Shown here: in pieces, positions 101 to 33,189 of the stretch
Layout: each line of letters opens with the position of its first letter
How positions within the stretch are numbered: the first letter of the stretch is position 1
Source: a virus
DNA length: 33,189 bases
Reading direction: 5' to 3' (one strand)
Virus record (IMG/VR): IMGVR_UViG_3300030451_004367
Span: 1 to 33,189 of that record
Notes under the pieces: generated by a model
Database searches by the model: none
The model's input: only the letters and a program-made list of their open reading frames with translations
Told to the model about the DNA's origin: nothing
Program-made: the position numbers and the translations under genes

Positions 101-297
101 ATTTATTAGATGAAGATTTACAGAAAGATATTGAAAAGTATATGTATTGCAAAGATACAAATACTCCAGCATATAATGGATGCTACGGAGAAACTCCAAA
201 GATCTGGATCCAGAAGCATTACGCTATTAAAAGCGCTTTATCTGCAAGAGATGCTATTTATAAAAACAAATTAATGGAATCAAATGGCAATAAGTAA
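1..297 (+). CDS. Tail assembly chaperone, frameshift extension (gpT-like), 3' part
   Basis: This reading frame is open from the first base to the TAA at 295-297 (98 codons) and has no start codon of its own here. It continues the frame that begins at the A-run near 32937 at the other end of the window, because bases 1-98 repeat 33090-33187 in the same frame. Joined across the circle junction, the extension is about 149 codons. It sits just upstream of and overlaps the tape-measure gene by 14 bp, which is the position of lambda gpT. I infer that it is translated only as a -1 frameshift fusion to the chaperone at 32635. The sequence is rich in Lys, Asp and aromatic residues, with no recognised domain. 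Confidence 0.75.
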   Translation, partial: YELWLEAKDYTKGDRQKTLIAVFEQLPFFCYNGNLLDEDLQKDIEKYMYCKDTNTPAYNGCYGETPKIWIQKHYAIKSALSARDAIYKNKLMESNGNK

Positions 298-2713
298 AGA
301 ACAATTAATAATACAGTTAAAAGCTGAAGGAATAACAGCTACAAAAGCTCAAATAAATAATTTACATAAAACTGTAAATAAAACAGAAAAAGGCTTTGGT
401 GGTATGGCTGCTACTATTGCTACAGCTACTGTAGCTATATTTGCGGCTCAAAGAGCAATAGGATCTATTATATCTACTGGTAAAGAGTTTGAGCAATCTA
501 TGGCTAATGTAAAAGCTATATCAGGCGCATCTGGTAGAGAGTTTGATATGCTGGCTAAATCTGCTAAAAATTTAGGAGCTACAACTGTATTTACAGCCTC
601 CCAGGTAGCAGAGCTACAAACTGAATTTGCTAAATTAGGTTTTACAGCTACAGAAATTACTGGAGTTACAGAAGGTACCCTGGCGCTATCATCTGCTGTA
701 GGATCAGATCTAGCTACATCTGCGGCTGTTGCTGGTAGTACGCTCCGAGGTTTTGGATTAGATGTATCTGAAACTACAAGAGTTACAGATGTTATGGCCC
801 TATCTTTTTCAAGCTCTGCTCTGGATATGGATAAATTTGCTAATTCTATGACCTATGTAGCTCCAATAGCAAAATCTGCTGGAGTGGATATAGAAGGAAC
901 TACTGCAATTCTGGGCCAGTTAGCAAATGCTGGTATTGCTGGATCTATGGCTGGTACATCATTACGGAGAATATTATTAGAGGCTGGAAATGCTAGCTCA
1001 AAGCTTGCTAAAAGAATGGGCGGACCTATAACATCATTTGAAGATTTCCAGAGGAAATTAAAGAAATTAAAAGATGATGGATTTGATCCTATTGTAGATG
1101 GTGCTGATTTAGTTGGTAAAAGATCTGTATCAGCTTTTGAGATTATGTTAAATGGTGTAGATGCAGTAGATGCTTTAGGAGAATCATTTAATAGCGCAGG
1201 TGGAGCAGCTCAAAAAATGGCAGAGGTCCAATTAGATACGCTAGAAGGTAAGCTAAAGCTAGCTACCTCTGCTATGGATGGATTAAAGATAGAAGTATTT
1301 GAGGCTAATGAAGGGGCTATAAAACAGGCTGTAGAAGGATTTACAGCATTTATAGAAAGCCTGGATGCAGAAACAGTAAACTCATACGCTGCTGGTATAG
1401 GTGTAGCGGCTACAGCACTAGGTATATATAGTGCGGCAACTCTATTAGCAGCTTTAAGATCAATGACTTTAGCGGCAGCTTTAGCTAAAACTCCATGGGG
1501 GGTAGCAGCTGTAGCTATAAGCCTTGTAGCTGGTAAGTTGATCCATATGAGCGGAGCTTTAGAGGTAGCGGAAACAGAGCAAGAAAAGCAAGCGGAAGCA
1601 GCTTTAAAGGCTGCAAAGGCAGCTGAAGCGCAGGCTAAAGCTGTAGCTGATCTTAATAAAGAATTAGATAAACAAACTTTAAGAGAAACAACTGATCAGC
1701 TAGATAATGTATTAGGAAATTTAGGATTTGTAACTGCTGGGTATGCAGCATTCAAACAAGAATTGATAGATTTAGAAACTGCTTATAATACAAATAAAGT
1801 ACCTGAAGAAGAAGCAATAACTACCAGGAATAGGATAGCATCTTTAAAAGAAATTTTACCAATGTATGAAGCAGAGATGGATCAGTTAGAGCAAAATGCT
1901 ACAGCTATGCAAAATTATATAAATAGCGCAAATGCAGCTAGTGCAGTAGATGGTGGTGAGCCAGGTACAGGTGGAGGTAGTACTGTAAAACCTCCTACAG
2001 ATGCAGAAATAGAAGCCGCACAAACAAAATTACAGGAGTTTCATTTATCAGAAATAGAAAGTATAGAAGAACAAAATAATATAAAATTATTTTTAGAAGA
2101 AACCAGATTATTAAATGCTGCTAAAATTACAGGCGCAGGAGAAGAAACGCTAACAAAAATAACAGATTCTTTTAAGAAAAAAAGGCAGGCCAATAGAGAT
2201 AAATTTGATAAAATGGAACAGATGGCCCAGCTAAAACATCATTCTATGTTATTAGGGGGTTTAAGCTCTTTTATTGGCCAATTTGCTGGAGGGGAAAAGA
2301 TAGCTGCTAGAATACAGCAAACAAAAGCTGTTATAGATACATATTCAGCAGCTAATAAAGCTTATACAAATGCTGGAGGATTCCCTACAGGTATTATACC
2401 AGCAGCCGCATCTATAGCTTATGGTATGGGTAATGTAATGAGAATAAGCAAGTCAATAGGAGATTTTAAAGCAGCTGCTACTGGTATGGATGATGTAGTT
2501 ACAAGGCCTACAATGATTTTAGCTGGTGAGGCTGGAGCCGAACAGGTATCTATAACACCTTTAGATGGTCCAAATATAGATGGACCGCAGGGATCACAGC
2601 CAGTAAATATTACTTTTACTGGTAATGTAATGAGCCAGGATTTTATAGAAAATGAGGCTATTCCAATGATAGCGGAAGCGGTTAGGCGTGGCGCAACGCT
2701 GGGAGATGCTTAA
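284..2713 (+). CDS. Tail tape measure protein
   Basis: This 809-residue protein should set tail length and help DNA ejection. Its N-terminal half looks like the TP901-family phage tail tape measure (PhageMin_Tail): an Ala/Gly-rich helix near residues 40-65, an AQVAELQTEFAKLGFTA-type segment near 105-125, and the TLEGKLKLATSAMDGLK motif near 318-334. Hydrophobic helices lie around 370-420, followed by an Ala/Lys/Glu-rich coiled coil (about 430-470) and a glycine-rich linker near 555. The C-terminus ends in a short beta-rich tail. At about 0.15 nm per residue the tail would be near 120 nm. The start ATG overlaps the chaperone extension, and the stop overlaps the next start (TAATG). Size, position and motifs make the call firm. 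Confidence 0.93.
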   Translation: MAISKEQLIIQLKAEGITATKAQINNLHKTVNKTEKGFGGMAATIATATVAIFAAQRAIGSIISTGKEFEQSMANVKAISGASGREFDMLAKSAKNLGATTVFTASQVAELQTEFAKLGFTATEITGVTEGTLALSSAVGSDLATSAAVAGSTLRGFGLDVSETTRVTDVMALSFSSSALDMDKFANSMTYVAPIAKSAGVDIEGTTAILGQLANAGIAGSMAGTSLRRILLEAGNASSKLAKRMGGPITSFEDFQRKLKKLKDDGFDPIVDGADLVGKRSVSAFEIMLNGVDAVDALGESFNSAGGAAQKMAEVQLDTLEGKLKLATSAMDGLKIEVFEANEGAIKQAVEGFTAFIESLDAETVNSYAAGIGVAATALGIYSAATLLAALRSMTLAAALAKTPWGVAAVAISLVAGKLIHMSGALEVAETEQEKQAEAALKAAKAAEAQAKAVADLNKELDKQTLRETTDQLDNVLGNLGFVTAGYAAFKQELIDLETAYNTNKVPEEEAITTRNRIASLKEILPMYEAEMDQLEQNATAMQNYINSANAASAVDGGEPGTGGGSTVKPPTDAEIEAAQTKLQEFHLSEIESIEEQNNIKLFLEETRLLNAAKITGAGEETLTKITDSFKKKRQANRDKFDKMEQMAQLKHHSMLLGGLSSFIGQFAGGEKIAARIQQTKAVIDTYSAANKAYTNAGGFPTGIIPAAASIAYGMGNVMRISKSIGDFKAAATGMDDVVTRPTMILAGEAGAEQVSITPLDGPNIDGPQGSQPVNITFTGNVMSQDFIENEAIPMIAEAVRRGATLGDA

Positions 2714-5700
2714 TGTCTTTTGAAAATGATACACAGGGCAAAAATACTCATTTATATCCAATAGTTACTATTGAGCCACCTAATACTCCAACAACATGGC
2801 CAAATCATTATCCTGATGTTATACACCTTTCAACAAATAGCGTATCTTTAGATCATATACATCTACCAAATACTGGTTTTCCTGATCTTATTAGGCAAGT
2901 GCATTTTAAGCCATTATTGTTAAATATTCCATCTATAAAAGAGTCAATAAATGTAGAATCAAGAAAGTTTAAAATTTCTAATGTAAGGCTAGATATATCA
3001 AATTACGAATATAATGGAGAAAGATTTTCTGATAAATTAGCTGATACTAGTCTATTAAACTGGAAGTGTAGCGTACAATTTGTTTCTCCAACAGCAAATA
3101 AATTTTCTACTATATTTAGTGTAGATGATTATGCAACTAAAGAATCTTTTTATGATCATTATATAGAAACTGGATTTGCTCCACAAATGACTAAAATGAT
3201 ATACCAGGGAGTAATCAGAAGAATATCGCATGATGATACAAAGGTATCTATACAGCTAGAAGATCTAACAGAGCAAAAAATTCACAAACTATTACCACAA
3301 CAATCTGTAGGATCAACAGAAGGAATACCAGATAAATATAAAAATAAACCTATTCCAATGGTATATGGGCGTGTTTCTAGGAGTCCAGTAGTTATGCCTA
3401 GCTTTGAAGATTTAACTATTGATTATAAAGATATTGAAGGATTAGTTGAAAGCTCAAACCATGATATTTTTACTGATCAAAATGTTGATTCTATGTATAT
3501 TGCAGTAGATAATGGCTATGTAAACTTACCTAAAACAATAGAGAAACAAATATTAGGATCTCCATTTAATATTAGTATAATTGATTCAGATCAAATAGAT
3601 GATTATAATTTAGAAGATCAATGGGAAGAAAATGTAGATGATAAAAAAGTTAAATTAAATCATACAAAATTATTTAGCAGAGGTGGATTACAGGTTAAAT
3701 CATTTTTAAAACCATCTACACCTAGTTTAATGAAATCAAGTTATGAAAGTGGATTTGATGATACTAATTTGTTAGAGTATGCTTCTAATCAGGACCTACA
3801 AACTCTAGTAGATGGTGATTTAAATACAGAAATCCCAATAGAGGTATCTAATTATATAGATAATTCTGATTTTGGTGAGTTTTTTGAGTATGTATCAGGC
3901 CAAAGAGATTCATTTTTTGTAATTTCAATAAATGCACCTCCAATTAATGATTTAGAAAAAGCTGATAATTTAATTGTTGCTTTAAATAATAAAGTTTTAC
4001 CAGAACCTTACGGATCATTACATAGAGATCCAGCGATAACAGGCTCTGATGGATCAGATACGACAGGTATTACATTTTTTGTTTTAAGTATTACAGCCTA
4101 TGGAGGTACTAATAGTGAACACGTTATTACAGAGGATATTAGTAATGATGGTACTGGAGATATAACAACATATGCGGATACGTCAATAACCTATAATGAT
4201 CTATTTATATTTAATTCAGGTGATATAAATAGTGTAGCAGATTTAAGTGATCCATCTAAAAATCCTAATGGTGCAACAATAGCATTTAAAACAGGATCAA
4301 CATTTATAGATAATGCGCAAATTATGTTTTGTAATAATGGATCTACTTTTGAAATAGTATTCTTTTCTCAACTAGGGCCTAATGTTACCAATGAAACAAT
4401 ACCAGGATTTCTTGATGCTAGATTCCAGGAATTAGATATGGTATTTTTAGCTGATATAAAAAATCCATTAGATAAAGATTTTTATGCAGATGTAAAAGGA
4501 AGGGTAAATACGTTTGATGATAATCCCTTTTATTATGCTGAATATTTAATACAAAATCCAGTAGAAATTATTTATGATATATTGAGGAGTGAACTTGGTT
4601 TAACTAATAAGCAAATAGATATTGATGATTTCACAAAAGCAAGGCTACAGCATCTTCATTACCAATTTTCTTTTACTATAAACAAAAAAACTGATTCTAA
4701 AAAATTAATAGAAGATATAGCTAAAAGCACAAAATGTTTTCCATATTTTGCTAATGATGGTAGGTTTAGATTTAATTCTATACAGGATAGTTATGGCGTT
4801 TCATCTACTTATGATAGCAATAAAACCAGGTTAATTAATGTTTCTGATGTTATAAAATATTCATTTAACAAAACAAAGCCAGAACAAATATATAAAAAAG
4901 TAACTGTAAATTATCATCATGATTATTCACAAGACTCTCTTTTAAGCTCTGTTTCTAATGATCTTGGTCCAGATGAGTTTTATAATATTACAGATTCAAA
5001 TGATGCTCATTTAGAATTTGATTGTAAGTATATTAGGAATGAAAATAATACTGATACAGAAAATAATCTTTTAAATTTTTTACTTAATCAATATAGAAAC
5101 GATCATTTATTGCTAAAGATCAAACTACCTTTAAAATATATGGATCTTGAGGTAGGTGGTATTATTAAGCTTCGTGAGCTATTGGGTGGAATTACTGCTT
5201 ATGGGATAGATTATAGATTAATACAGAATCCAACTGGAGAAATAGATCCAGATGGATCTACAGTTGGCGGCCAGTATTATTATCCATTATTTTTTATAAC
5301 ATCAATACAGAAAAAAATAGATTCTGTTGAAATTGAATGTATGCAGTTGCATCATTTAACAGAGAATAGTGATGTAGATCAAGCATGGTTTGATTTTGAG
5401 GATAAATTTAATTTTCCAGATTCTGTTGGTATAATTCCAGAACCTCCAGATGATTTTATACCAGTATATACTACTAATTTAAATGTAGATTTAACACCTA
5501 TAATGATCAATATATTAAATGATGACTATCCAGTAGAACAAGGACCTTTACAAGGTGCATCTTTTCAGCTTCCAGAAGCTACTGCTAGCATTACTTATGT
5601 AAATCCAGTAGGAGATACTGTAGAGGCAAATTTGCCAGATGGTGTTACTGTAAGTGTAGATCAAGTTGAGTGCATAAATCCTTCTTCTATTTTTCATCAA

Positions 5701-6438
5701 ACTACATACTCTGCTGGAACAAATGTAGATTTTATTGATGATAATGGAGTTGATTATATATTTAGATATAAAACTAAATTTAATAATTTAGTAGATTCAA
5801 GCTTTGATATTTATTATACAGAGCAAACAGCAGATGTTATTGTAACTTTTAATCATATAACAGACAATCCACCATCATTCTATATAGCGGCAGTTTGGGG
5901 TTCAGATGCAGATTTAGTTTTTGAAGGAAGCGATATAACACATACTATATTTATCCAAGATCAGCAAGAAAATTATTATGAAAAATATTTATATGAAGAT
6001 AGCCCTGATAGGCAAATTAGGATTGTACCAAATGATGATAATGATCCAAATCCTACAGTTTTTTATGGCGCTGATATATCTCAACAAAATGGAGGGTTTT
6101 TCAGTAATTCATTACCATTTTATGATTTACCAGATTTAACAACAGCAGGCGAATATGAGGTATGTTGTGCTGTACAGGATAATATCGGACAATGGTCTTT
6201 TTTAAGGCATTGGACGGTAGTAGTATTTGATCCAGATGCACCAGTTACTCAAGCTGGAGATGCAAATAGTGATGGAGTAGTTAATATTTTAGATGTTGTA
6301 ATAGCTGTAAATTATGTACTAGCTGAAAATCCATATGATCCAACTGGTGAGCTTTTCGATACTATAGATATGAATCAAGATGGCGCAGTAAATGTATTAG
6401 ATGTTGTGCAGATAGTTAATATAGTTTTATATGGATAA
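2713..6438 (+). CDS. Tail tip/baseplate hub protein with C-terminal dockerin-like domain
   Basis: At 1241 residues this is the largest protein in the window, and it directly follows the tape measure in the place of a distal tail or host-specificity protein (gpJ-like). A central region near 620-700 (FTINKKTDSKKLIEDIAKST, then CFPYFANDGRFRF) resembles the conserved fold of siphovirus tail-tip proteins. The C-terminal third is Asp/Pro-rich and beta-like, probably receptor-facing. The last 61 residues (about 1181-1241) contain two EF-like calcium loops, GDANSDGVVNILDVV and DMNQDGAVNVLDVV, the hallmark of a type I dockerin. Dockerins bind cohesins in cellulosomes and also occur widely as C-terminal modules of secreted proteins; I know of none that is standard in phage tails. 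The tail-tip role is probable; the dockerin match is strong by eye. Confidence 0.8.
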   Translation: MSFENDTQGKNTHLYPIVTIEPPNTPTTWPNHYPDVIHLSTNSVSLDHIHLPNTGFPDLIRQVHFKPLLLNIPSIKESINVESRKFKISNVRLDISNYEYNGERFSDKLADTSLLNWKCSVQFVSPTANKFSTIFSVDDYATKESFYDHYIETGFAPQMTKMIYQGVIRRISHDDTKVSIQLEDLTEQKIHKLLPQQSVGSTEGIPDKYKNKPIPMVYGRVSRSPVVMPSFEDLTIDYKDIEGLVESSNHDIFTDQNVDSMYIAVDNGYVNLPKTIEKQILGSPFNISIIDSDQIDDYNLEDQWEENVDDKKVKLNHTKLFSRGGLQVKSFLKPSTPSLMKSSYESGFDDTNLLEYASNQDLQTLVDGDLNTEIPIEVSNYIDNSDFGEFFEYVSGQRDSFFVISINAPPINDLEKADNLIVALNNKVLPEPYGSLHRDPAITGSDGSDTTGITFFVLSITAYGGTNSEHVITEDISNDGTGDITTYADTSITYNDLFIFNSGDINSVADLSDPSKNPNGATIAFKTGSTFIDNAQIMFCNNGSTFEIVFFSQLGPNVTNETIPGFLDARFQELDMVFLADIKNPLDKDFYADVKGRVNTFDDNPFYYAEYLIQNPVEIIYDILRSELGLTNKQIDIDDFTKARLQHLHYQFSFTINKKTDSKKLIEDIAKSTKCFPYFANDGRFRFNSIQDSYGVSSTYDSNKTRLINVSDVIKYSFNKTKPEQIYKKVTVNYHHDYSQDSLLSSVSNDLGPDEFYNITDSNDAHLEFDCKYIRNENNTDTENNLLNFLLNQYRNDHLLLKIKLPLKYMDLEVGGIIKLRELLGGITAYGIDYRLIQNPTGEIDPDGSTVGGQYYYPLFFITSIQKKIDSVEIECMQLHHLTENSDVDQAWFDFEDKFNFPDSVGIIPEPPDDFIPVYTTNLNVDLTPIMINILNDDYPVEQGPLQGASFQLPEATASITYVNPVGDTVEANLPDGVTVSVDQVECINPSSIFHQTTYSAGTNVDFIDDNGVDYIFRYKTKFNNLVDSSFDIYYTEQTADVIVTFNHITDNPPSFYIAAVWGSDADLVFEGSDITHTIFIQDQQENYYEKYLYEDSPDRQIRIVPNDDNDPNPTVFYGADISQQNGGFFSNSLPFYDLPDLTTAGEYEVCCAVQDNIGQWSFLRHWTVVVFDPDAPVTQAGDANSDGVVNILDVVIAVNYVLAENPYDPTGELFDTIDMNQDGAVNVLDVVQIVNIVLYG

Positions 6439-6450
6439 TAGGAGATATAA

Positions 6451-7110
6451 ATGTTAGTTTACGGAGATGGAAATGTTATATTTGAAGGATCTGCTAGAGG
6501 CTTTGAGATAGTTTACAAAGGTGCTATAAAGATTACAGAAAGCCCAGATAATTTATTTATCAGCGGCAATAAAAAGAAAATTGTTGGCGTTATGATGGCT
6601 GATGAAGATATACCAAATAAATTATTTAGCTATGAAGGAAACTTTAGGATATTACTTTGTAATATGATACAGAACAACGAAATGGTAAAAACTGAAGTAA
6701 AGCTACAGGGCGTAGATTTTTGGCAGCTAGATGGTCAAAAATGGGAAGATGATGGAACAAAATGGGGTACATCTAATAAAACTTTTTTAGTGGGTGCGGT
6801 CCAGAGATTTAATAAGCATGATATTGTTGTAAATAATAATATTAGAACCCAATATGATGGCCAGTATAATTATAGTAATGGCGATCCAGTTTTAGCAAAT
6901 ACTTTAATACATATACATAATGACGGTAAGGCCATGACAGGCGGAACTCATAATGAAGATTCTGTAGAAATATATGCTTCTAAAGTAGATCCTGCAAGGA
7001 TACAAAGAGTAATAAAAAGATCAAGACAAACTACTGCTAACTATACCACTCCAGCACCGACAAGTACATCTGGTGGATCTGGTGGATCTGGTGGCGGAGG
7101 AGGATATTAA
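6451..7110 (+). CDS. Putative distal tail protein with Gly/Ser-rich C-terminus
   Basis: A 219-residue protein preceded by a good ribosome site (AGGAG, 7 nt before ATG). It has no signal peptide or membrane segment and is beta-strand-like throughout, with a Trp-rich patch near 90-110 (FWQLDGQKWEDDGTKW). It ends in a low-complexity tail of Ser/Thr/Pro then GGSGGSGGGGGY, a flexible linker or presentation tail. It lies between the tail-tip protein and another beta-rich protein with 12 bp upstream and a TAATG overlap downstream, so I infer a tail-fibre or tail-tip accessory part. No family recognised. Confidence 0.6.
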   Translation: MLVYGDGNVIFEGSARGFEIVYKGAIKITESPDNLFISGNKKKIVGVMMADEDIPNKLFSYEGNFRILLCNMIQNNEMVKTEVKLQGVDFWQLDGQKWEDDGTKWGTSNKTFLVGAVQRFNKHDIVVNNNIRTQYDGQYNYSNGDPVLANTLIHIHNDGKAMTGGTHNEDSVEIYASKVDPARIQRVIKRSRQTTANYTTPAPTSTSGGSGGSGGGGGY

Positions 7111-15951: not shown

Positions 15952-16099
15952 TACATTCCTCACAAATAGTTTTAAATTCTATATTAACATCCTGGCCACA
16001 TGATTTACATTTATTCCATCTGTAGCGAGGTTTACGAGCAGAGGAGCTAGTTAGGGCCAGCTCCTCTTTTTTTATTACGTTATTGTAATAATTGCTCAT
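15938..16099 (-). CDS. Zinc-ribbon microprotein
   Basis: A 53-residue ORF starting at ATG 16099 in a TAATG overlap with the upstream LPD29 gene. CKSCG (31-35) and CEEC (46-49) form a rubredoxin-like zinc ribbon. The N-terminal 25 residues are charged and probably disordered. Its early codons coincide with a plus-strand terminator hairpin at 16040-16073. Function unknown. Confidence 0.7.
   Translation of the reverse strand: MSNYYNNVIKKEELALTSSSARKPRYRWNKCKSCGQDVNIEFKTICEECNEKK
16040..16073 (+). terminator. Plus-strand intrinsic terminator inside a minus-strand gene
   Basis: AGAGGAGCT (16040-16048) pairs with AGCTCCTCT (16059-16067), a 9-bp stem with a 10-nt loop, followed by an unbroken T-run through 16073. 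No plus-strand gene ends nearby, so it would stop readthrough or antisense transcripts coming from the left before they reach the LPD29 gene. On the minus strand the A-run precedes the stem, so leftward transcription should pass with less effect. Confidence 0.7.
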
Positions 16100-16701
16100 T
16101 AGGCAGCCATATATTCAGCTACAGATAACTCTCTAGCAGTTTCATAGATTAAGTTGTTAATCCATTGGGCCTCATTCCAATCACGACCATTACAGGCGAA
16201 ATCGCTGTAGTTGATCCAGCCAGCTTTTGTACTTTCAGTAACTCTAACCGCATCAAGTGTAGTTAGATCATAGTGGCCAGTTTTTTCTGCGACTATTTCA
16301 ACAGCATCTATAAAATGACCAGCTGTTATATTTTGAGTTACGAAAATATAATCAGCTCCAAAGCTTACACATTCCCAGCCTTCTCCAGGGCAATCATTTT
16401 GCTCACCTTCATAACAACCGCCAGTAACTGCGCTGCCTTGGTTATTAGCTACACATACCTCACCAGTAGCCTCATTATACCAATGGCTGATATTATATTG
16501 GTAGTCAATCATGCCATCAAAACCAGCAGCCTCATATTTACGAGCTATAGCTTTTACATCAGCTTCAGCAGGTCCATTAGTATATTCTATATTAATAGCA
16601 GATCCGCTTCTAGATCTAACTGAAAATTTTACGCCAGGGAAATTAGCTTTTAAATCTTTTCTAATTAATGCAGCAGTTTGAGCAGTAGTTAAGTATTTCA
16701 T
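16099..16701 (-). CDS. LPD29-domain protein (polyvalent-protein-associated)
   Basis: A protein of 200 residues from ATG 16701, which has CGGAG 7 nt upstream. The in-frame GTG at 16740 would add 13 residues. The N-terminus matches LPD29, a domain described in large polyvalent proteins of phages and conjugative elements: YLTTAQTAALIRKDLKANFP, GVKFSVRSRSGSAINIEY, a DGP-like NGP, then FDGMID near 75-80. The second half contains several Cys and Trp (CYEGEQNDCPGEGWEC) and an acidic helical end. LPD29 proteins are thought to act early in the recipient or host cell, perhaps against defence; the exact role is unknown. First gene of the P_L2 unit. Confidence 0.75.
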   Translation of the reverse strand: MKYLTTAQTAALIRKDLKANFPGVKFSVRSRSGSAINIEYTNGPAEADVKAIARKYEAAGFDGMIDYQYNISHWYNEATGEVCVANNQGSAVTGGCYEGEQNDCPGEGWECVSFGADYIFVTQNITAGHFIDAVEIVAEKTGHYDLTTLDAVRVTESTKAGWINYSDFACNGRDWNEAQWINNLIYETARELSVAEYMAA

Positions 16702-16733
16702 TTTTTTCTCCGTATTTTGTTTTAAGTAAGTAT

Positions 16734-16777
16734 CAATCACATAATAAATATAGGTACCTTAATATATATGATCCTAA
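16734..16777 (-). promoter_or_regulatory. Promoter P_L2 (leftward)
   Basis: On the minus strand: a weaker TTAG (16777-16774), a 21-nt spacer, TATATTTA (16752-16745), 4 nt, then GTGATTG (16740-16734). The downstream leader to CGGAG and the ATG is closely similar to those of P_R1 and P_R2. It drives the three-gene minus cluster (16701 to 15748). Confidence 0.65.
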
Positions 16778-17797: not shown

Positions 17798-18013
17798 ATG
17801 AGTAAACAGATAGGTAGCTGTTTAACTTGTAAGCATATAAAATTTATAGATGGTCAGCCTTCAGCCTGTGCAGCTTTTCCTGGTGGAATACCATTGGATA
17901 TACAATTTGGTAAAGTAAACCATAATAAGCCATATAAAGGTGATAATGGTATAGTATATGAGGCCAGGGTATTTAAGCCTAAAAAATCATTTGATGATCC
18001 TTTATTGCCTTAA
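17798..18013 (+). CDS. Small Cys protein of the CxxCKH...AFPxGIP family
   Basis: A 71-residue protein with C8, C11, C24 and H42 as likely metal ligands. The pattern CLTCKHIKFIDGQPSACAAF followed by PGGIP, NHNKPYKGDNGI is one I recall from many short bacterial and phage hypothetical proteins. I cannot give a function. It is last in the P_R2 unit and its stop overlaps the stop of the minus-strand MuF-ART gene (18010), with no terminator between. Confidence 0.7.
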   Translation: MSKQIGSCLTCKHIKFIDGQPSACAAFPGGIPLDIQFGKVNHNKPYKGDNGIVYEARVFKPKKSFDDPLLP

Positions 18014-19404
18014 TTTTCTACTACTACTACAGATTCCTTACTGAAAGCTACAAAATAATCATCGAAATCCTTTTCTATATTCATAGTTCCAGGCAACCTA
18101 GCGTTTTTAACTACTAATCCATCATATCCCTGCTGCTCCAAAAATTCAGTTCTCAAATTCCCCCATTCAGGTTTAAAAAATAGATCTTCTACATCTCCTC
18201 CCATTTGTAGCTCTTTTATCATTTCAAGAAATTCAGGATCATTATTTAAATATTTTTGTTTTAAAAAATCATCAAACTTTTCACTTAAATCGTTAATCTG
18301 GTCAGATACGAAAGCTCTGCCAGTTTTTGGATCTATTCCGCCTGTATATCTATTCCCAAATCTTTTATAATAATCAGTACCTTTAACATAATCAACATAC
18401 TGCTCAACTGTTTCTATACCTTCTTTTATGTGAAAACTATTTGGAGTCCATTTTGCTAGCTGATCATCCATTATGCCAAATTTAGCTTTTCTAAATAAGT
18501 CCTGGGTAAAATTTAAATCATCTATATTTTTTGTTGCCAGGCCTCCCCAATCCCAAAACTCTTTAGCCTCTAAAGATAGTGGATTTTTTAAATTGTATTT
18601 TAGTATTAACAGATCTCCATCTAATCCGTATTGCAATCCAACATTTAGATCTCCAGTTCCATATACGCCATTTCCATACAGGCTACCAGTTCCTTGTATT
18701 GTAGTATCAAATCCCTCTTTAGCTATATTTTGACCTAATCCTTTTCTTGTTCCATGGAATATTTCTTGTGGAGTTTCACTATTAGCAGCCCAAATTTCCG
18801 CTTCTTTTCTTGACATACTCGGCTTCCATTGAGGTTGTGTAGGCGCTTTTTTTCTAATCCTTTTTTCTTTTAATGGTACTCCCTGAACCTTTGTAGGCAG
18901 TTTACCGCTAGGATCTAAAACACAATAACAATATGATCTACATACGGACCAACCAGATCCTGGCAAGCCTTTTTCTTCATGATAATTAAATGTACCTTTA
19001 TCACCTTCTCTTTCAACACAATCAGGGCAAATTTTATGGCCAGTTACAGTTATCCAGGTAAACTCACCTTTATCTAAATCATAATTATCATATTGGCCTA
19101 ATCTAGCTACCTCCTGCACTCCATCTACTATACCAGCTTTTACATCATTTTTAAGCTGGCCAAATATTCTGCCTCCAGTTTTCATATCATTATTTAATGA
19201 TTCTGCAATAGCTGATCTATTCATTCCGCTGCCACTTAAATTTGTTATTTGCTTTTGTATATTGTTTGAAAAGGTCCTGGCATCAAATACCATTTTATCT
19301 AAACTATTTAAAAGCACTCTTTCAGCTGTTGGAGTTAATCCATCTAAAGCCTTTAGCACAGTATCAAAATCATCACCAAATAATTTTACATAATCTATAG
19401 CCAT
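18010..19404 (-). CDS. MuF-like minor head protein fused to a putative ADP-ribosyltransferase
   Basis: A 464-residue protein. Residues ~1-190 resemble MuF-type minor head proteins: a helical start, FTWITVTGHKICPDCVEREG (C126, C129), and GSGWSVCRSYCYC (C155, C159, C161). A basic linker (~178-200) follows. Residues ~212-464 look like a PARP-type ADP-ribosyltransferase: IFHGTRKGLGQNIAKEGF (H217), LYGNGVYGT (Y243/Y248), GYDGLVV (426-432) and a final FVAFSKESVVVV with E457 as candidate catalytic acid. MuF-fused toxin domains are known in prophages and are thought to be carried in the head and injected. The gene lies downstream of terL, portal and a gpG-like gene, the usual MuF place. The ART assignment is by pattern. 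Confidence 0.75.
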   Translation of the reverse strand: MAIDYVKLFGDDFDTVLKALDGLTPTAERVLLNSLDKMVFDARTFSNNIQKQITNLSGSGMNRSAIAESLNNDMKTGGRIFGQLKNDVKAGIVDGVQEVARLGQYDNYDLDKGEFTWITVTGHKICPDCVEREGDKGTFNYHEEKGLPGSGWSVCRSYCYCVLDPSGKLPTKVQGVPLKEKRIRKKAPTQPQWKPSMSRKEAEIWAANSETPQEIFHGTRKGLGQNIAKEGFDTTIQGTGSLYGNGVYGTGDLNVGLQYGLDGDLLILKYNLKNPLSLEAKEFWDWGGLATKNIDDLNFTQDLFRKAKFGIMDDQLAKWTPNSFHIKEGIETVEQYVDYVKGTDYYKRFGNRYTGGIDPKTGRAFVSDQINDLSEKFDDFLKQKYLNNDPEFLEMIKELQMGGDVEDLFFKPEWGNLRTEFLEQQGYDGLVVKNARLPGTMNIEKDFDDYFVAFSKESVVVVEN

Positions 19405-27404: not shown

Positions 27405-28937
27405 ATGGCAAGATTTACAACAACTTTAGGCATACAAACTCCAGATGAAAATTTACAAAAAATAAAAACTGGAGAGTATGTAGAAATGTTTAAAATTAAT
27501 CAAGAATTAAGCGCAGGCCTTTCGCATAATACTTTTATAGATCTTTTAAAACCAAGTACCACAGCGGTCCAAGGTGGTATAAAAGATGCTAAAACTTTAT
27601 TAATAAGAAATGCTGGCGTAGTTGGTGCTGAAGTGCAAATTCAAACAAATGAATGGAGTGATGGATCTTCTGCTCCTGATGCTGTTACTGGTGATTCCCA
27701 TCAAAATTATTTATTAGGTGCTGGTGATTTTATTCTGTTACCTAATTTAAGACAAATAAATTTTAGAACTGATGTAAATAGTGGGGGTGCTGGATATGTA
27801 TTAAATAATGTAGCTCCAAATGCTAATATGTATGTAGCGGTAGATAATCCAGCGGCTGGTGATGCGCAGTTACTAGATGGAGCTATAAATGATACTACTA
27901 AAACTATAACTGTAGATGATGGAAGCTTTTTTTACGTTGGTGATTTGATAAGAATTAATAATGAAATCATGGAGGTTACAGATGTTAGCGGTAATGATCT
28001 AAATGTTATAAGAGGTAGCCATGGATCTGCACCCGCATCACATTCAGATAATGCTGCATTAAGATTTCCATTTTTTAACGCTCATGCTGATTTTGATAAA
28101 TTTTCTGTATCTCAAACGGATGGATCTGGTAGGTTTTTAGCTCATAACTTTTTTGGATATGCGAGAACAGAAGGCGTAGCAGATGGATTGGTTCCTGGAT
28201 CATTCAGCGGAAAGTTTTATAACCAGGGCTATCAGGAAATAGGATTATCTGGAATAACACCAGCTACAGATTCAGGTTTAGATGCTTCAACTACCTATGC
28301 TTTTGATATAGCGGTAGATGGTAGCGCATCAGATCATACTCTATCTTTTACTACATCAACAAATACTCGTTTCGGATCAAATGATGGGGTTATCAGAAAA
28401 ATACAGGATGCGCTGAATGCCGCTTTTTATGTTCCAAATGCTTCAACTAATCAGCTATTTGAAAAACAAATTATTGTTTCTATAGTAAATGGAGATTTAA
28501 GATTTACATCTGGATCACATTTATCTACATCTGCTATATCTATATCTGCACCATCATCTGGAACAACTCCATTTGGTGTAGGTAGATTTCCAGCTGTAGG
28601 TGATATAGAAGATCCAGTAGCATCACGATTACCACAAGATACAATTATTGATAGATCTAGCGGAGTAACATCTGCAAATTTAGGTGAAATGTTTTATGAT
28701 GATGGCCATGGTAATATACATGGAGCTTGTAATGGTACCATAGACTATAGAACTGGAGCTATAGATCTATTTAATGCTCCAAAAAATGCACAGTTTACAG
28801 TAAGCGCTGCTTATGGATCAGCGCATAGCGGAGAAAATGCTTATGCTGATGCTTCTGCAAATTCAATAAAACAAATTTCAGCTAGAAGCGCTAATAGTAA
28901 AATTTATACAACTATAGAGGTTATAGGTTTAAGATAA
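27405..28937 (+). CDS. Large structural protein of the head operon
   Basis: A 510-residue beta-rich protein preceded by AGGAT. Residues ~170-220 contain the recurrent virion motif FYVGDLIRINNEIMEVTDV, then LNVIRGSHGSAPASHSDNA. It is known from many phage structural proteins, where an EiM-V element and an RG-GT-aaH segment recur. No membrane or catalytic motif. It lies between decoration-like proteins and the basic-protein cassette, so it may be a head fibre or a large decoration subunit. Its stop overlaps the next start (TAATG). Confidence 0.68.
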   Translation: MARFTTTLGIQTPDENLQKIKTGEYVEMFKINQELSAGLSHNTFIDLLKPSTTAVQGGIKDAKTLLIRNAGVVGAEVQIQTNEWSDGSSAPDAVTGDSHQNYLLGAGDFILLPNLRQINFRTDVNSGGAGYVLNNVAPNANMYVAVDNPAAGDAQLLDGAINDTTKTITVDDGSFFYVGDLIRINNEIMEVTDVSGNDLNVIRGSHGSAPASHSDNAALRFPFFNAHADFDKFSVSQTDGSGRFLAHNFFGYARTEGVADGLVPGSFSGKFYNQGYQEIGLSGITPATDSGLDASTTYAFDIAVDGSASDHTLSFTTSTNTRFGSNDGVIRKIQDALNAAFYVPNASTNQLFEKQIIVSIVNGDLRFTSGSHLSTSAISISAPSSGTTPFGVGRFPAVGDIEDPVASRLPQDTIIDRSSGVTSANLGEMFYDDGHGNIHGACNGTIDYRTGAIDLFNAPKNAQFTVSAAYGSAHSGENAYADASANSIKQISARSANSKIYTTIEVIGLR

Positions 28938-29125
28938 TGGCTAAAAGGACCAGAAGGAAAAGCACAGTAAACAAAGCAGGAAACTATACAAAGCCTGCTA
29001 TGAGAAAGCGCTTATTTTATAAGATTAAAGCAGGATCTAAAGGCGGTAGGCCTGGCCAATGGTCAGCTCGCAAGGCCCAAATGTTAGCCAGGCAATATAA
29101 GGCAAGGGGTGGAGGTTATAGGTAA
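28937..29125 (+). CDS. Small very basic protein 1
   Basis: A 62-residue Arg/Lys/Gly-rich protein (AKRTRRKSTVNKAGNYTKPA, ending ARQYKARGGGYR). It has almost no acidic residues, so it should bind nucleic acid. TAATG overlaps on both sides show tight coupling. First of five consecutive tiny basic genes in the head operon; possibly packaged with or condensing the DNA. No known family by eye. Confidence 0.7.
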   Translation: MAKRTRRKSTVNKAGNYTKPAMRKRLFYKIKAGSKGGRPGQWSARKAQMLARQYKARGGGYR

Positions 29126-29642: not shown

Positions 29643-29903
29643 ATGGCTAAATATAAAGGCAGATCAGTTAGATTAAATAAACCTTCCGCAATCAGGAAGG
29701 GCCAGCCTGGATATGGTCGTAAAAAATCACAAGTCTATGTAAGGACTCCAAGCGGATCAATTAAAAGAGTTATGTTTGGTGATCCTAATATGAGAATTAA
29801 AAAGAACAGCCCAGCTCGCAGAAAATCTTTTAGAGCAAGGCATAATTGCGCTAATCCAGGACCTAAAACTAAAGCTAGGTACTGGTCCTGCAAAGCATGG
29901 TAA
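29643..29903 (+). CDS. Small basic phage protein with conserved C-terminal RARHNC...YWSCKAW motif
   Basis: An 86-residue basic protein. The C-terminal half (FGDPNMRIKKNSPARRKSFR, ARHNCANPGPKTKARYWSCK) matches a motif I recall from many myo- and siphophage structural proteins, where it is unnamed or a domain of unknown function. Two cysteines (near 68 and 83) may pair or bind metal. Last of the basic cassette and just before the connector genes. Confidence 0.75.
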   Translation: MAKYKGRSVRLNKPSAIRKGQPGYGRKKSQVYVRTPSGSIKRVMFGDPNMRIKKNSPARRKSFRARHNCANPGPKTKARYWSCKAW

Positions 29904-32940: not shown

Positions 32941-33189
32941 TTCAATTAGAGTTAAATGTATTAATAGATGAATTAGATCAAAATTCTCCATATGTGCAGA
33001 TTCCATATAGCTTTATAGATATAATGGCTAAAGATGGGAAGCGTGAAAAAATAAATGTAAAAACTAAAGAAGATATTTGGGATTATATTTATGAGTTATG
33101 GCTGGAGGCTAAAGATTATACAAAAGGTGATCGCCAAAAAACGCTTATAGCAGTTTTTGAGCAATTACCTTTTTTTTGTTACAATGGCA
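32937..33189 (+). CDS. Tail assembly chaperone, frameshift extension (gpT-like), 5' part
   Basis: The -1 reading frame continues open from the slippery site to the window end (84 codons), reading IIQLELNVLIDELDQNSPYV and onward. It then continues in the same frame in bases 1-297. With the 101-residue chaperone, the fusion would be about 250 residues. The first in-frame ATG (near 33022) has no ribosome site, so independent translation is unlikely. Confidence 0.75.
   Translation, partial: MIQLELNVLIDELDQNSPYVQIPYSFIDIMAKDGKREKINVKTKEDIWDYIYELWLEAKDYTKGDRQKTLIAVFEQLPFFCYNG
33090..33189 (+). repeat. Terminal direct repeat, right copy
   Basis: Second copy of the 100-base terminal overlap. Removing it gives a unique length of about 33,089 bp. 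It falls in the middle of the tail-chaperone extension, so it is not at a natural gene boundary and is unlikely to mark a cos end or a long terminal repeat. Confidence 0.9.

Follow-up and report, generated by a model that had tools for sequence, protein, structure and literature searches.

A type I dockerin module at the C terminus of a siphophage tail-tip protein and its candidate cohesin partners in Marinimicrobia

The tail-tip protein encoded in the window (the whole stretch of viral DNA analysed here, 33,189 nt) ends in a module that sequence profile, loop-helix repeats and predicted fold all confirm as a type I dockerin. Dockerins are best known for cohesin binding, and the reading we lean towards, with a slightly better than even chance, is that the tail tip would bind a cohesin on the surface of its host, probably a member of the Marinimicrobia, where gpJ binds its receptor. 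This reading draws on the predicted fold of the module, its position, its conservation in the phage lineage, and the partner modules present in candidate hosts.

The tail-tip protein and its C-terminal module

The window, an IMG/VR virus record that looks complete, has a G+C of 0.34. Its ends share a repeat of 100 bases with one mismatch (1-100 against 33090-33189), suggesting a complete genome assembled as a circle. The features of the tail region are collected in Table 1. Residues 42-1241 of the 2713-6438 product were modelled with AF2 from 20 sequences. The model is mixed, with a confident N-terminal domain and hub (about residues 580-900) and low confidence in the variable middle and in the linker preceding the dockerin (about 905-1179). 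Its best Foldseek matches are T5 pb3 (E 2.5e-11), lambda gpJ (about 1e-10) and the hubs of T1, JBD30 and Chi, and the product models as a siphophage central tail-tip hub of the gpJ/pb3 type. The description of the protein as a tail tip, made in an earlier note on this DNA, is thus upheld by the position of the gene after the tape-measure gene and by the match of the model to pb3 and gpJ. From the N terminus the protein is laid out as an N-domain, a variable middle, a conserved hub (about 580-882), a linker and the dockerin. Gene position and hub fold are shared with lambda gpJ and T5 pb3, whereas sequence identity to these proteins is only about 10% and the window protein ends in a dockerin in place of the gpJ fibre domains or T5 pb4/pb5. 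In lambda, the distal C terminus of gpJ, past the hub, makes the host contact by binding the receptor LamB, and it is this end that the dockerin occupies in the window protein.

Table 1. Coordinates of the tail-region features in the window
Feature	Position	Strand	Basis
Tape-measure protein	284..2713	+	PF10145 1.7e-35; PHROG TMP 5e-63; immediately upstream of tail-tip gene
Tail-tip (central hub) protein, gpJ/pb3-like, 1241 aa	2713..6438	+	follows TMP; homologues; AF2 model; Foldseek
Variable linker, hub to dockerin, residues 883-1180	5359..6252	+	alignment A1; missing in dockerin-less distant homologues
Type I dockerin module, residues 1181-1241, extreme C terminus of tail-tip protein	6253..6435	+	PF00404; AF2; fold matches
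First calcium loop, residues 1183-1194, D-x-N-x-D-G-x-x-N-x-x-D	6259..6294	+	near-invariant ligand positions in phage homologues
Second calcium loop, residues 1219-1230	6367..6402	+	near-invariant ligand positions in homologues
Conserved tail protein, 219 aa, Gly-rich C terminus	6451..7110	+	next after tail-tip gene in related phages too
Conserved tail protein, 372 aa	7110..8228	+	gene order same in related phages

The C-terminal end of the open reading frame reads GDANSDGVVNILDVV...DMNQDGAVNVLDVVQIVNIVLYG. The earlier note had described a dockerin-like module with two calcium loops of type I form at 6253-6435 and had proposed a profile search as a check; both the identification and the coordinates hold. 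The whole protein scores 35.3 bits (E=1.3e-8) against Pfam Dockerin_1 (PF00404, cut-off 22.9 bits), the match covering residues 1181-1237, and its last 74 aa alone score 40.8 bits (2.5e-10); the loops begin at residues 1183 and 1219. A chance EF-hand-like match, of which the note had warned, did not materialise: generic EF-hand models scored under their cut-offs on the tail-tip protein, and two such loops at dockerin spacing arose in 0 of 20,000 shuffles of it. The top PDB sequence matches of the module are cellulosomal dockerins. Modelled alone by AF2 with 21 phage sequences as input, the module reached a mean pLDDT of 90.7 and shows a helix after each calcium loop, and structure comparison places solved type I dockerins closest to it (Z up to 10.4, rmsd about 1.2-2.4 Å). 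Comparison of the dockerin end of the whole-protein model with dockerins from cohesin complexes gave a TM-score of about 0.8 by target length. The module resembles the type I dockerins (PF00404) of Clostridium thermocellum (1ohz/2ccl) and C. acetobutylicum (6kg9) in its two loop-F calcium repeats, fold, C-terminal position and profile. In contrast to these, which are carried by secreted enzymes, it is attached to a phage tail-tip protein with no scaffoldin in the phage, and it has Ile/Val-Leu where the recognition pair of C. thermocellum is Ser-Thr.

Positions 11, 12, 18 and 19 counted from the Gly, the cohesin contacts in solved complexes, carry the consensus (V/I)L...VN in both phage and Marinimicrobia dockerins, with positions 12 and 19 more variable in phages than in Marinimicrobia. 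Conservation among the phage dockerins is highest at the calcium ligands. Pooled pN/pS is 0.52 for the dockerin and 0.28 for the hub over 43 non-independent pairs, indicating that the dockerin is under purifying selection yet changing at roughly double the rate of the hub, as would be expected of a receptor-binding part following its receptor.

Distribution of the module in the phage lineage

In IMG/VR, 38 stretches matched a DNA pattern built on the dockerin loop; most are the module ending a tail-tip homologue, often beside a tape-measure homologue. A single query with the whole tail-tip protein returned no relative in IMG/VR, and an alignment was therefore needed. Alignment A1, comprising 11 homologues trimmed before the dockerin so that the module plays no part in the search, identified 80 IMG/VR loci. 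A dockerin ends 65 of the 67 distinct homologues with a complete C terminus, a proportion from a search biased towards the dockerin-bearing lineage because all rows of A1 come from dockerin-bearing phages. When the scans are combined, 77 distinct tail-tip proteins on many contigs have a dockerin end at the same place. Searches of INPHARED phages with the whole protein and the dockerin found nothing, and the tail-tip alignment found no relative on GTDB contigs. From these sequence comparisons, the dockerin is near-universal and old in the phage lineage and not a recent capture by the window phage. The suggestion that the module was taken from the host remains plausible as to origin, whereas its presence in 65 of 67 homologues speaks against recent capture in the window phage. 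A Mantel test of hub against dockerin (r 0.47, 0/999) reflects common descent among close relatives only and is saturated deeper.

The sole complete homologues retrieved from IMG/VR that lack a dockerin are at loci L050 and L061, and their C termini differ. In a sub-lineage (L009, L017, L032, L064-L066, L069 and L073-L075) two open reading frames take the place of the single tail-tip gene; the product of the first has a basic or Gly-rich terminus, and the dockerin closes that of the second. L014, L019 and L032 were considered as half dockerins and rejected, the other repeat being merely degenerate. L009 and L025 may have a single repeat.

Dockerin-less homologues were found in Marinimicrobia genomes. 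Across 245 genomes of the phylum of the Marinimicrobia MAG G001, A1 detected homologues in five (E to 1.9e-48), compared with two weak matches in 395 Bacteroidota genomes; the Gemmatimonadota control was one genome and is uninformative. One of the five homologues is situated on a 502-kb contig and is likely a provirus. No dockerin was seen on the homologue in the five Marinimicrobia regions read or matched, the fifth genome (G184) giving a partial match only. The homologues at L228, L229, L230 and L232 end at about window residue 882, straight after the hub. The five hosts contain 0, 0, 1, 1 and 2 dockerins, and the G+C of the loci is 0.45-0.64 where read, compared with 0.34 in the window. This pattern would fit acquisition of the module for dockerin-rich hosts, the comparison covering only five cases at loci that differ in G+C. 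L231 (G102:C64) and L232 (G192:C20) are phage regions within Marinimicrobia genomes that contain several window-like genes, a tape measure and tail tip in L231 and a capsid, portal, terminase and tail tip in L232.

Candidate hosts and their cohesins

Eight marine Marinimicrobia MAGs of 1.1-1.9 Mb (G001-G008; loci L120, L124, L133, L138, L143, L146, L165 and L172) were chosen for their dockerin matches. They contain 42-83 dockerins each. The Marinimicrobia dockerins are C-terminal in 53 of 66 sampled open reading frames, and 47 of 62 dockerin proteins have signal-peptide-like starts by a crude test. The earlier note had also advised looking for cohesins in the candidate host, and in these MAGs, selected by dockerin matches, PF00963 is found above its curated cut-off in 8 of 8, with 2-9 matches each when weaker ones are included. 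A profile built from eleven of the host cohesin modules matched cellulosomal cohesin chains in the PDB as well as NagJ, for which a cohesin-dockerin complex has been solved. In at least two proteins a cohesin is combined with a type IX sorting domain (Por_Secre_tail), all scores being above cut-off (46.6 and 35.0 bits, respectively, in L233; 27.4 and 40.3 bits in L241). Just under the cut-offs are a 253-aa cohesin protein whose end resembles a sorting domain and a lipoprotein-like cohesin of 278 aa. Many host cohesins lie within large proteins, 1000-3000 aa in length. SprA, part of the type IX system, was found in seven of the eight MAGs. Dockerin-poor Marinimicrobia genomes have 1-4 cohesins too, so that the presence of a cohesin alone proves little and does not predict the phage type. 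Dozens of dockerin proteins and a few cohesins per genome apparently constitute a little-described surface-attachment system in Marinimicrobia. A Gemmatimonadota MAG (bin29, G248; L169, L187 and L293-L298) yielded 148 matches to dockerin; their second repeat often reads ADCNGDG...LDALGIVNVILG, a form that differs from that of the phages and Marinimicrobia.

When GTDB was searched with the phage dockerin profile, the best 80 matches listed came mostly from Neomarinimicrobiota and Bacteroidales MAGs. In 20 balanced draws the phage dockerins were nearest Marinimicrobia in 73% of comparisons, and the wording of the module is indeed typical of Marinimicrobia dockerin proteins, as the earlier note had suggested. 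Its use as a host marker fared less well, since the nearest cellular dockerin to that of the window belonged in every draw to the Bacteroidales set, which was preselected by similarity to the window dockerin. A DNA comparison of a 20-kb part of the window gave mostly chance-level matches. The strong ones fall in two small basic late genes lacking a Pfam match (28937-29125 and 29643-29903), which have 69-78% nucleotide identity to Marinimicrobia contigs, one of them on a 335-kb contig (G110:C57); these two matches, from a comparison among Marinimicrobia only, are suggestive of that phylum. A relative of the terminase with 45% identity is encoded on an 8.5-kb contig of a Marinimicrobia MAG. Marinimicrobia are likely the host phylum of the phage lineage and may be that of the window phage. 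The lack of a spacer match, of a dockerin-bearing provirus and of a homologue in the scan of GTDB contigs weighs against this assignment.

Proposed role of the module and alternatives

The location of a module best known for cohesin binding at the end where lambda gpJ binds LamB makes receptor binding the simplest reading. The dockerin would then be the receptor-binding module of the central tail-tip hub, folding when loaded with calcium and docking onto a cohesin on the host surface. Either a type IX sorting domain or a lipid anchor would keep that cohesin in place, and it would presumably be exposed. The hosts, likely marine Marinimicrobia (SAR406) or close FCB relatives, appear to anchor dozens of secreted proteins of their own by cohesin-dockerin pairing, and the phage would take the same socket. 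Points against this reading are the greater variation of recognition positions 12 and 19 in phages, the cohesins of dockerin-poor Marinimicrobia, the scores of the small host cohesins just under the cut-off, and the window dockerin, which is not closest to Marinimicrobia. We regard it as an even chance that a broad marine siphophage lineage finds its hosts by such mimicry, having gained the module with dockerin-rich hosts and lacking it with dockerin-poor ones.

The earlier note had left open whether the partner is a host surface cohesin or another part of the virion. In the latter case the dockerin would act as an assembly clip, binding a cohesin-like domain of another tail protein such as a fibre or tip cap. 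Conservation across the lineage would suit a structural part, and two more tail genes follow downstream in conserved order. However, Pfam detected no cohesin in the window phage and 21 related records even at E<=0.5, although a very divergent cohesin is possible, and profile comparison of the 219-aa and 372-aa downstream tail proteins with the host cohesins gave nothing. The phage likewise encodes no cellulosome, there being no cohesin in it or its 21 relatives to make a scaffoldin. The faster change of the module relative to the hub would also be unusual for an internal joint. The presence of cohesins in candidate-host genomes, with none found in the virion, favors the host-surface option, and a clip is improbable.

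The dockerin could alternatively serve an accessory role in adsorption, letting the phage grip cohesin scaffolds, either shed or on the surface, in an initial reversible step while another protein commits the phage to infection. The many host cohesins in proteins of 1000-3000 aa would be compatible with such scaffolds, and the downstream tail genes could encode the main binder. The position at the end of the hub and the near-universality of the module favor a central role instead, and we consider an accessory one unlikely.

There is a slim chance that the module has no cohesin partner and serves as a calcium-stabilised cap for folding or trimerisation of the tail tip. The calcium ligands are conserved best while the cohesin-contact positions vary more than in host dockerins, and phage proteins with EF-hand-like calcium sites exist, for example LysGH15 (PMC4022735). 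The hydrophobic surface motif common to phage and host dockerins argues against a cap, as do the distant homologues in dockerin-poor hosts, which manage without the module and indicate that the hub needs no dockerin to fold. An accident, either an assembly error joining a host-like module or a chance EF-hand, has a negligible probability, as nothing more than the short length of the module speaks for it and its recurrence in the 77 distinct phage proteins, together with the shuffling result, refutes it.

Cohesin-dockerin pairing at the cell surface, as favored here for the receptor, has been proposed in Cloacimonadota. In the system reported for Ca. Stygibacter (PMC8542988), secreted proteins carry dockerins at their C terminus and the cohesin scaffold bears a C-terminal sorting domain. 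The Marinimicrobia dockerins and cohesins are similarly arranged; that work concerns bacterial enzymes, and no use by a phage was found described there. Viral proteins with dockerin-like folds are present in UniProt/BFVD, some labelled 'Dockerin type 1' (A0A8S5M688, A0A8S5UCJ3) and several unnamed (A0A516..., 830-1374 aa), the latter probably of the same family as the window tail tip. In the literature searched, which was mostly open-access with few preprints, no description was found of the function, position or host system of these viral proteins, no paper beyond loose remarks on phage tail tips with dockerins or on cohesins as phage receptors, and none on dockerins in Marinimicrobia. Dockerin-bearing viral proteins are thus already in databases, unexplained, and a gpJ/pb3-type tail tip ending in a dockerin is new as far as we found.

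For nearly all phages that infect uncultured ocean bacteria, no receptor is known. With a dockerin at the tail tip, a concrete class of receptor can be named, the surface cohesin, and tests of it need only purified proteins and no culture of the host. If true, this would be the first case, as far as we found, of a virus binding a cell by cohesin-dockerin pairing. The tail-tip dockerin also draws attention to a surface-attachment system of Marinimicrobia, a phylum widespread in the ocean, that comprises dozens of dockerin proteins in each genome.

Two further genes on the minus strand of the window have domain matches. A 464-aa protein encoded close to the portal and terminase genes (18010-19404) matches the PARP catalytic domain weakly, under the cut-off, which hints at an ADP-ribosyltransferase-like part, and the product of 16099-16740 contains an LPD29 domain (large polyvalent protein associated) with a score of 82 bits.
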